The notes beneath the pieces are model-generated. The model saw only the letters and a program-made list of their open reading frames with translations. It was not told the DNA's origin and made no database searches. The position numbers and the translations under genes are program-made. From Alphaproteobacteria bacterium (GTDB taxonomy: Bacteria > Pseudomonadota > Alphaproteobacteria > Puniceispirillales > Puniceispirillaceae), in NCBI GenBank assembly GCA_018666135.1, contig JABJAN010000009.1:1-32828 (forward strand): a stretch of 32,828 bases of DNA. The letters are read 5' to 3'. Below are positions 22,202-24,828 of this stretch, one piece after another (position 1 is the first letter of the stretch; every line of letters begins with the position of its first letter).

Positions 22202-23254
22202 CTAGCTGCAAATCTGCCAATAAACAGGCATTTGTGGATCAAAAACGGTTATATTTCCTTGATTTGTCTCAAGTTTTTTTTTCATTTTAAGAGGTGTCTG
22301 TACTCGTTTTAACATCATTTTATGCTGATTATAGGGAAGATTATAAAAATCTGCTCCGTTTAAACTAACGAATCCTTCTAACTCATGCAAAGCATCTAAA
22401 TTATCGAATAATTGTGCTAATATTTCAATGGTATGAGGGGCATTAAACACACCTGCACATCCACATAAATCAATTTTTGCATGATCTAGATGAGGCGCGC
22501 TGTCTGTGCCAAGAAAAAATCTTTTATCTCCCTTTGTTGCGGCATCTATTAAAGCCAAGCGGTGTGATTCACGCTTTAATACTGGCAGACAATAATAATG
22601 CGGCCGAATACCGCCACTAAGCATAATATTGCGATTAACAACTAAATGATGGGGCGTTATTGAAGCCGCCAACCCACTTGAGGAATTAAGAACATATGCT
22701 GCTGCTTGACGGGTAGTGATATGTTCCATTACAATTTTTAATTCAGGATATTCGGCACGAAGAGGATCTAATACCCGTTCAATAAAAACGGCCTCTCTAT
22801 CAAAAATATCAATATCTGTATCTGTTACCTCGCCATGAATTAATAACGGTATGCCAGCATCACTCATGGCTTCTAAGACAGGATATACTGCCTTTATGTC
22901 TTTAACCCCGTTATGCGAATTTGTTGTAGCACCTGCTGGATATAGTTTAACTGCTTTGATTATCCCGTCGCGATATGCCTGCACAACATCAGCTGGGTTT
23001 GTTTCTTGCGTTAAATAAAGCGTCAAAAGGGGCATAAACTCAACATCGTTTGGAATACACGCCCGTATTCTATTTGCGTAAGCTTGTGCATCTGCGCCAG
23101 TAACAATAGGAGGCACTAAGTTCGGCATTATGATAGCTCTTGCTGCCCAGCGTGTTGTAGCTGGCAATACAGCTTTCATAATTTCAGAATCTCGAATATG
23201 CAAATGCCAATCATCTGGCTGTATGATGTTCAGTTCATTTTGTTTGGCTGTCAT
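22202..23254 (-). CDS. pyrC: dihydroorotase (class II, PyrC)
   Basis: A 350-residue amidohydrolase cyclising carbamoyl-aspartate to dihydroorotate in pyrimidine synthesis. Binuclear zinc ligands are visible: His17 and His19 (DDWHLHIRD), the carboxylated Lys103 (AVKLYPAGATTNS), His140 (LLIHGEV), His178 (MEHITT) and Asp251 (GTDSAPH). All are in E. coli PyrC-like contexts and the length matches. It starts at ATG with AAGGGC ten bases upstream. It lies 50 nt after the dadA-like gene on the same strand, so it may partly be read from the glycine-riboswitch transcript. Confidence 0.95.
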   Translation of the reverse strand: MTAKQNELNIIQPDDWHLHIRDSEIMKAVLPATTRWAARAIIMPNLVPPIVTGADAQAYANRIRACIPNDVEFMPLLTLYLTQETNPADVVQAYRDGIIKAVKLYPAGATTNSHNGVKDIKAVYPVLEAMSDAGIPLLIHGEVTDTDIDIFDREAVFIERVLDPLRAEYPELKIVMEHITTRQAAAYVLNSSSGLAASITPHHLVVNRNIMLSGGIRPHYYCLPVLKRESHRLALIDAATKGDKRFFLGTDSAPHLDHAKIDLCGCAGVFNAPHTIEILAQLFDNLDALHELEGFVSLNGADFYNLPYNQHKMMLKRVQTPLKMKKKLETNQGNITVFDPQMPVYWQICS

Positions 23255-23304: not shown

Positions 23305-24528
23305 TTATAATTCGGTATTCTGAATTAATTCGCCTACCATGTTCGCTGTGTAACAGGCAAGTGTCCAGCCTAGATGGCCATGACCAGTGTTATAAAATAT
23401 ATTAGGTTTTTTGCTTCTTGCCACGAGTGGCAGCATATTTGGTCTCATTGGTCTTAATCCTGCCCAAGGACATAGATCTTTAGTAGGAAGTTCTGAACAA
23501 TTTTGCTCCACCCATTTTTTCAAAGGTGTAATACGCGCATCTTCTATATCAAGATTATACCCCGCAATTTCTGCAGTGCCGGCAACTCTAAATCTATCAA
23601 CACCTAATCTTGAAGTTACTATTTTAGCTTCATCATCAAGCAAGCTAACATTTGGGGCATTTTCTTGCGCTTTAGTATCAGATAGAGGAATTGTTATTGA
23701 ATAGCCTTTAACAGGATAAATATTAACTCTATCTCCAAGTTTCTGAGAAAAATGGTGGCTTGCTACTCCTGCGCATAAAACGGCGCCATCAAATATATCT
23801 GTTTGCTGTTCTTCCTGATTTGGCTGAAAATTAATGTTGACCTGTCCATTTATAGTTTGCACATTAGTAACATCTGTCCAAAGCCTAAATTCAACACCTT
23901 TGCTTTTTGCAACTTCTGCTAAATTATATGTAAACTTATGAATATCCCCCGTTGAATCTGTCTTAGTATAATAGCCACCAATAAACTTCTTTCTCAAATT
24001 TGGCTCTATCTCTGACACCTCATTACTGGTTAGACGTTGCCGCTGCAGTCCTCCTGCAGCTAAAAGCTCATTTACCTTATGCGCATGCTCAAATTCTTTT
24101 TGGCTATTATAAACATGTAAAATACCGCAATCTGACTTATCAAATTCTATTCCGCTTGCATCCATAATTTTTTTCATCTGATGACGCGATTCGATTGCCA
24201 TTCTGGTGGTCTCTATCGTATTTTTTTTATAATGCGCTGTCTGCATAAGAAATTGACACGCCCAGCTAACCTTATGCCAATCTGGAAAATAATTTATCTT
24301 CAGTGGAGCGTCTTTTTTTAATAACCACGATGCTGCCTTCAAAATTGTACCGAAATGATTCCAAACCTCTGCATTACTAGCAGATATCTGCCCCCCATTT
24401 GCATAGGAAGTTACCACAGACGGATATCTCTGTTTTTCAAAAACAGTGACTTTATATCCAAGTTGATTTAATACCCAAGCTGTAGTAACGCCAGTTACGC
24501 CTGCGCCAATGATTGCGATTGTTTTCAT
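23305..24528 (-). CDS. dadA: DadA-type D-amino acid dehydrogenase (FAD)
   Basis: A 407-residue FAD-dependent oxidoreductase of the DAO/DadA family. The Rossmann motif is GAGVTG (8-13). The YANGGQISASNAEVW segment (about 42-56) and C-terminal GHGHLGWTLACYTA are characteristic of DadA-type dehydrogenases, which oxidise D-alanine and other small amino acids to the keto acid and ammonia, passing electrons to the respiratory chain. The expected location is peripheral inner membrane. It has a good SD (GGAG) and a long leader containing a tandem glycine riboswitch. That suggests glycine or a glycine-derived compound is a physiological substrate or signal. The precise substrate (D-Ala, Gly, sarcosine) is not decidable here. 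Confidence 0.85.
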   Translation of the reverse strand: MKTIAIIGAGVTGVTTAWVLNQLGYKVTVFEKQRYPSVVTSYANGGQISASNAEVWNHFGTILKAASWLLKKDAPLKINYFPDWHKVSWACQFLMQTAHYKKNTIETTRMAIESRHQMKKIMDASGIEFDKSDCGILHVYNSQKEFEHAHKVNELLAAGGLQRQRLTSNEVSEIEPNLRKKFIGGYYTKTDSTGDIHKFTYNLAEVAKSKGVEFRLWTDVTNVQTINGQVNINFQPNQEEQQTDIFDGAVLCAGVASHHFSQKLGDRVNIYPVKGYSITIPLSDTKAQENAPNVSLLDDEAKIVTSRLGVDRFRVAGTAEIAGYNLDIEDARITPLKKWVEQNCSELPTKDLCPWAGLRPMRPNMLPLVARSKKPNIFYNTGHGHLGWTLACYTANMVGELIQNTEL

Positions 24529-24545
24529 TTTTTAAATTCTCCAAA

Positions 24546-24581
24546 GTGTATAAATACCAAAAATTGGCTATAAAAATACAC
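24546..24581 (-). promoter_or_regulatory. candidate expression-platform hairpin of the glycine riboswitch
   Basis: Between aptamer 2 and the dadA SD, GTGTAT pairs with ATACAC (24576-24581 with 24546-24551), with an inner CCAA/TTGG. The hairpin ends six bases before the GGAG ribosome-binding site. The TTGG and TTTGGAG repeats offer competing pairings with CCAA, so control of translation initiation is plausible. No clear T-run terminator was seen. Confidence 0.45.
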
Positions 24582-24585
24582 CTCG

Positions 24586-24787
24586 CCTGTTTTTGTACCT
24601 GAAAGTTTCCTAACAGAGCTGTATTATAGCTGTGCTAGTTATCCCCGTCGGTGGCCTTTTTAGGGCTACTTTCCAGACTGTTCACGCTAATTGGTCCATT
24701 ATGCCTGAGAGATTATGAGGCTTGTACTCCTTCGGCGCTGTATAAACACGCATTATATACATGTTGCACAGACTCTCCCAATCAGCG
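24586..24787 (-). ncRNA. tandem glycine riboswitch upstream of dadA-like gene
   Basis: Read on the minus strand, aptamer 1 (24787-24685) has the conserved GGGAGAG, GCGCCGAAGGAGTACAAGCC and ATCTCTCAGGCATAATGGACC blocks. It is closed by a 10-bp P1 helix (CGCTGATTGG with CCAATTAGCG, one G-U). Aptamer 2 follows within a few bases, with CTGGAAAGTAGCC, CACCGACGGGGATAACTAGC and AAACTTTCAGGTACAAAAACAGG. These are the class hallmarks (GCCGAAGG and CTCTCAGGcAAAAGGAC-type cores). The transcript would begin only a few bases before P1. Two aptamers plus a downstream hairpin next to the SD make a complete switch for dadA. Confidence 0.9.
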
Positions 24788-24800
24788 GATAGAACGCCTA

Positions 24801-24828
24801 ATTATACCATGCTTTTTACTATTTTCCA
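24801..24828 (-). promoter_or_regulatory. promoter of the riboswitch-dadA transcript
   Basis: On the minus strand a perfect -10 TATAAT (24801-24806) lies 16 bp from TGGAAA (24823-24828, four of six consensus bases). The predicted start, near 24794, is just outside the first helix of the glycine riboswitch, which supports both calls. Confidence 0.6.

Follow-up and report, generated by a model that had tools for sequence, protein, structure and literature searches.

A tandem glycine riboswitch ahead of a dadA-type gene in Puniceispirillales and the proposed glycine dehydrogenase it may control

Glycine riboswitches and the dadA leader

Glycine riboswitches have been reported upstream of gcvT, glcB, serC, sdaA, glycine transporters and COG4198 in the accessible text of two earlier studies (PMC2211319; PMC3766115), the second of which (Sun 2013) places twelve orthologs of glycine-metabolism genes under such control. 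The system closest to the one described here is the riboswitch of gcvT or gcvTHP, which belongs to the same RNA family (RF00504), shares the tandem layout and the single expression platform and stands before gcvT in sister genomes of the order studied here. At our locus, however, the controlled gene is a dadA of the NF009074 branch, and the source genome gave no match to gcvP. In SAR11, a riboswitch lies on the malate synthase gene glcB itself (PMC2211319; PMC5069720, citing Tripp 2009) and feeds carbon to the same glyoxylate-malate node, whereas the present one lies on a presumed glyoxylate-making enzyme and glcB is found in the same gene string as riboswitch-dadA only in some Rhizobiales.

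Two DadA-like enzymes offer a comparison on the protein side. DadA of Escherichia coli hardly turns over glycine (kcat/KM 0.275 per M per s; PMC9436414). DadA6 of Cupriavidus necator is called a glycine oxidase in the accessible text of one paper (PMC11879842) and, in that of another, is credited with a share in formate assimilation by engineered C. necator (PMC12421819). DadA6, whose oxidation of glycine in vivo has been reported, is only possibly related to our enzyme; the same portions of both papers mention no glycine riboswitch for it, and the published DadA6 primers found no match in C. metallidurans, among the named loci described below or in six genomes. The literature searched held no relevant link between a glycine riboswitch and dadA or another (D-)amino acid dehydrogenase, although a listing in the supplement of Sun 2013 is possible.

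The window analysed is the whole stretch of 32,828 nucleotides at positions 1 to 32,828 of contig JABJAN010000009.1 (assembly GCA_018666135.1), from an alphaproteobacterium of the Puniceispirillales. A preliminary description had placed two aptamers, a short linker, a promoter just before the first helix and a hairpin next to the Shine-Dalgarno (SD) sequence on its minus strand, ahead of a DAO/DadA-family gene, and each of these was recovered:

24801-24828, minus strand: promoter-like sigma-70 site, TGGAAA-16 nt-TATAAT with TG before the -10 (a 10/12 consensus match only)
24682-24790, minus strand: glycine riboswitch aptamer 1 (RF00504, cmscan of the whole window, 53 bits, E 2.4e-8)
24679-24681, minus strand: inter-aptamer linker of about 3 nt, the gap between the RF00504 matches
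24585-24678, minus strand: glycine riboswitch aptamer 2 (RF00504, 28.1 bits, E 0.0011, scan of a 421-base stretch)
24678-24674 (GUCUG) and 24589-24585 (CAGGC), minus strand: the two arms of aptamer-2 P1
24542-24585, minus strand: expression-platform hairpin of 10 pairs, 24585-24576 with 24551-24542
24539-24542, minus strand: SD motif GGAG, read from the sequence, 10 nt ahead of the ATG
23305-24528, minus strand: dadA-like gene of 407 aa, NF009074/PRK12409 branch, proposed glycine dehydrogenase (PF01266, 205.7 bits; NF009074)
22202-23254, minus strand: pyrC, dihydroorotase (TIGR00856, 404.7 bits), 50 nt downstream of dadA

The covariance-model check that had been proposed supports both aptamers. 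The curated RF00504 cut-off of 32 bits is passed by aptamer 1 and, in a scan of the whole genome, by aptamer 2 (24577-24686, minus strand, 34.4 bits), which falls below it in the scan of the shorter stretch. P1 and P3 of aptamer 1 are formed in the minimum free energy (MFE) fold. The tandem aptamers are in sense with dadA, which begins about 50 nt further down the same strand, and form the sole RF00504 locus found in the source genome (1.77 Mb scanned, 92% complete). As a tandem glycine riboswitch, the element in the dadA 5' leader is ordinary and belongs to a known class.

Transcription is predicted to start a few nucleotides ahead of aptamer 1, at a putative promoter to be read against the 10 promoter-like sites found in a 1951-bp region, where shuffles lead one to expect 5.7. 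The last base of aptamer-2 P1 is also the first of the hairpin's 5' arm, the 3' arm ends on the first SD base, and the helix is conserved in the genus (98.8% of cells paired among eight leaders); these eight leaders held no two-sided compensatory changes. An intrinsic-terminator mechanism was considered and rejected, since the leader is devoid of any terminator-like site. At the contig end, positions 1-310 of the minus strand carry the 5' end of a 16S rRNA gene (292 bits).

The NF009074 branch and its link with the riboswitch

The window protein passes NF009074 (PRK12409, labelled D-amino acid dehydrogenase) with 599.4 bits against an equivalog cut-off of 494. It does not pass the canonical DadA model NF001933 (PRK00711; 348.8 bits, cut-off 383), on which canonical members score 431-460 bits. 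The NCBIfam cut-offs split nine tested proteins, three canonical ones passing only NF001933 and five others of the branch only NF009074; the protein of locus L066 lies below both, and the riboswitch is absent there too. Canonical DadA thus shares the DAO fold family with the window-type dadA, at 33-39% identity, but passes the other family cut-off, and its E. coli representative is the enzyme nearly inactive on glycine cited above. For ThiO the proposed reaction is the same and glycine oxidases are the nearest solved structures, but the window protein reaches only 119 bits on the ThiO glycine oxidase model TIGR02352, whose cut-off is 250.8.

A survey of the leaders of orthologous dadA genes, also proposed in the preliminary description, found the association to be strict. 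An ortholog (47-100% identity) is present in 73 of 136 genomes of the order, and in 71 of these the riboswitch precedes the gene on its strand at a distance of 20-206 nt. Two genomes gave no match: in G027 the gene is cut by the contig start, which leaves 72 testable genomes and a count of 71/72, and G060 is truly devoid of the riboswitch. Within the genus, the element is kept in all nine genomes where dadA was found. Beyond the order, a sample of the class contained five genomes with dadA at 49-54% identity, all with the riboswitch, and two at 43-48%, both without it. Among 87 named loci of Alpha-, Beta- and Gammaproteobacteria outside the order, 85 carry it; these are the best 80 of at least 592 relatives plus seven plasmid loci, a choice biased to the best matches that gives no family-wide fraction. 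Independent confirmation with Rfam succeeded at all 20 named loci tested, including Rhizobiales, Burkholderiales and Granulosicoccus. In the tree, the riboswitch precedes 121 of 125 members of the dadA branch and none of the 21 canonical DadA loci examined outside it. The riboswitch is a rule, close to universal, for the NF009074 DadA branch. The target had been called unusual, which holds for the literature searched but not for genomes, where the link is near-universal in this branch.

Two leaders deserve a separate mention. The ortholog of G060 (locus L183, G060:C226; 54% identity) has another reading frame about 110 nt upstream, in a genome with neither an RF00504 match nor a real gcvP. In a Granulosicoccus MAG, the leader of an NF009074-type dadA (L173:2081-2500) holds an apparent 3' remnant of aptamer 2 only (AAACTCTCAGGTTCCAAGACAGATGGGATG), and an intact tandem riboswitch is found on contig 25 of the same MAG.

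The label given to this family by NCBIfam and GenBank would fit a true D-amino acid (D-alanine) dehydrogenase, controlled by the riboswitch because an excess of glycine upsets the metabolism of D-alanine and the cell wall, and an alanine racemase gene indeed lies downstream of dadA at one plasmid locus (L089). A similar racemase was seen at no other locus compared, for which reason it was rejected as a general partner of dadA, and canonical DadA, the characterised D-alanine enzyme, is never preceded by the riboswitch in our sample. Moreover, an ON switch that burns D-alanine while glycine competes with it would work the wrong way round. We consider this explanation unlikely, the more so as it leaves unexplained the distribution of gcvP and the glcB neighbours presented below.

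Predicted direction of the switch

When glycine is abundant, it would bind both aptamers and aptamer-2 P1 would form, taking up a strand that may otherwise base-pair with the region of ribosome binding; translation of dadA would therefore rise with glycine. Support for such an ON switch comes from the leaders taken together. Of 103 distinct leaders, 64 show complementarity between the 3' region of aptamer-2 P1 and the SD or start region beyond shuffles at p ≤ 0.05, against an expectation of about 5, and 43 do so at p ≤ 0.01; in leaders of the f4 family, TTCCGTGACAGA pairs with TTTGTCACGGAG, SD included. From this complementarity one would expect dadA to be repressed when glycine is absent and released when it is present. 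The detail varies: the best duplex takes in the P1 strand together with the SD or start codon in only 40 of the 108 leaders compared.

In the window leader, the SD is predicted to be largely open with or without P1. Forcing P1 changes only the first G of the SD, from 0.16 to 0.89 unpaired, and the SD hairpin shares a single base with P1. A switch at the ribosome site is thus weakly predicted by the fold of this leader, and for the source genome we infer the ON logic mostly from its relatives and from the catabolic role proposed below.

The same features, namely a hairpin that barely competes with P1 and a weak second aptamer (28-34 bits in the window), would suit an OFF switch, or a non-functional relic inherited with dadA in the source genome. 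Retention in nine of nine genus genomes with dadA and a linkage conserved across three classes argue for function, and this alternative appears quite unlikely next to an ON switch.

Glycine cleavage, glyoxylate and the proposed enzyme

In the order, dadA and the glycine cleavage gene gcvP tend to exclude each other. A real gcvP was found in 42 of the 136 genomes and dadA in 73, with three genomes having both, 70 dadA only, 39 gcvP only and 24 neither. Fisher's test gives p = 4e-14 for all genomes and 0.002 for the well-assembled ones, both values being overstated as the genomes are related; many of the genomes are also incomplete. By genus, about eight have dadA without gcvP, seven gcvP without dadA, two include genomes with both and three have neither; no intact gcvP was found in the source genus. 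At the inspected loci of the order without dadA, the tandem riboswitch stands before gcvT, in many cases with gcvH and gcvP after it, and the genomes G014 and G032 harbor one riboswitch locus of each type. Four larger genomes of the class sample have both dadA and gcvP, which suggests that outside the order dadA adds to gcvP and does not replace it.

Two further observations were made on these genes. Six nearly complete f2/g15 genomes (G040, G043, G049, G052, G056 and G058) have no glycine riboswitch, gcvP or dadA. In the source genome, a 378-aa GCV_T-like gene (locus L056, G000:C59:4085-4795) lies beside a 3-hydroxyisobutyrate-dehydrogenase-like gene; from this context it is probably a DMSP demethylase gene and not gcvT.

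The neighbours of dadA point to its product. On plasmid pMET1 of Aminobacter sp. NyZ550, the riboswitch and dadA are followed by malate synthase G after a gap of 34 nt, and malate synthase G also comes directly after riboswitch-dadA in other Aminobacter, Mesorhizobium L-8-3 and Microvirga VF16. This position suggests glyoxylate as the product and therefore glycine as the substrate. In the order, 42 of the 43 good genomes encode malate synthase G. RidA-type genes near three loci would fit an imine product, but the evidence is thin. Clustering of gene neighbours in high-GC loci was too noisy for use.

The NF009074-type enzyme would thus oxidise glycine to glyoxylate and ammonia and pass the electrons to what we infer to be the respiratory chain; malate synthase G would then condense glyoxylate with acetyl-CoA to malate, and in the source genus, which has no intact gcvP, the enzyme may serve for glycine disposal in place of the glycine cleavage system. 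A glycine dehydrogenase switched on by its riboswitch, leading to glyoxylate and then malate and standing in for glycine cleavage in the genus, is in our opinion the probable reading of this locus. Oxidation of glycine is the most likely function given the genomic context and the possibly related DadA6. Among the substrates that the preliminary description had considered, glycine gained support from the anticorrelation with gcvP, from the malate synthase G neighbours and from the lack of riboswitches on canonical DadA, while sarcosine and D-alanine remained unsupported.

The AlphaFold2 model of the dadA protein (mean pLDDT 80.6) matches glycine oxidases (Z 34-36), sarcosine oxidases (Z 33-34) and D-arginine dehydrogenase (Z 30.8). 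It supports the reaction class, FAD-dependent oxidation of amino acids or amines, and leaves the choice of substrate to other evidence; the nearest solved structures were discarded as proof of glycine specificity, since sequence searches with canonical DadA likewise give glycine oxidases as the first hits. As the predicted fold is nearly as near to sarcosine oxidases as to glycine oxidases, and as N,N-dimethylformamidase-like genes adjoin two loci, the substrate might be an N-substituted glycine (sarcosine or an iminodiacetate-like compound), with glycine as product or proxy. We hold this to be very unlikely, for NF009074 stands much closer to DadA than to sarcosine oxidases, the adjoining malate synthase points to glyoxylate, and an enzyme producing glycine should be turned off by it. 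Four positions, V55, I196, N269 and S372 in the numbering of the window protein, separate the riboswitch-dadA clade almost fully from canonical DadA, most of the clade having G at S372; they are candidates for substrate specificity.

Extended to the whole NF009074 branch of Alpha-, Beta- and Gammaproteobacteria, the glycine dehydrogenase reading would make of it a riboswitch-defined group of glycine-inducible respiratory enzymes that replaced glycine cleavage in SAR116-type marine bacteria, a generalisation that we favour only slightly over its denial. The interest of the locus lies in its target, a probably mislabelled enzyme branch marked by a riboswitch. If the reading is true, a widespread family label is wrong and hundreds of genes are annotated as D-amino acid dehydrogenase in error. 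Glycine disposal in SAR116-type bacteria would shift from a route yielding one-carbon units to one yielding glyoxylate, which would provide a glycine route for marine bacteria without glycine cleavage and bear on their one-carbon supply. Glycine oxidation is also a known leak in glycine-based synthetic carbon fixation, and work in that field would gain a glycine-inducible control element together with its matching enzyme.

Shared control of pyrC was suggested earlier, and read-through from riboswitch-dadA into it is possible. The order dadA-pyrC-potF is kept in genus g1 and also in a second genus of the family (g3). In the f4 family, a convergent gyrB-like gene comes after dadA, suggesting that the riboswitch follows dadA rather than pyrC. 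The dadA-pyrC-potF arrangement is shared by locus L041 and the genus loci L033-L035, L042 and L046-L048, between which dadA differs at nearly half of its residues.
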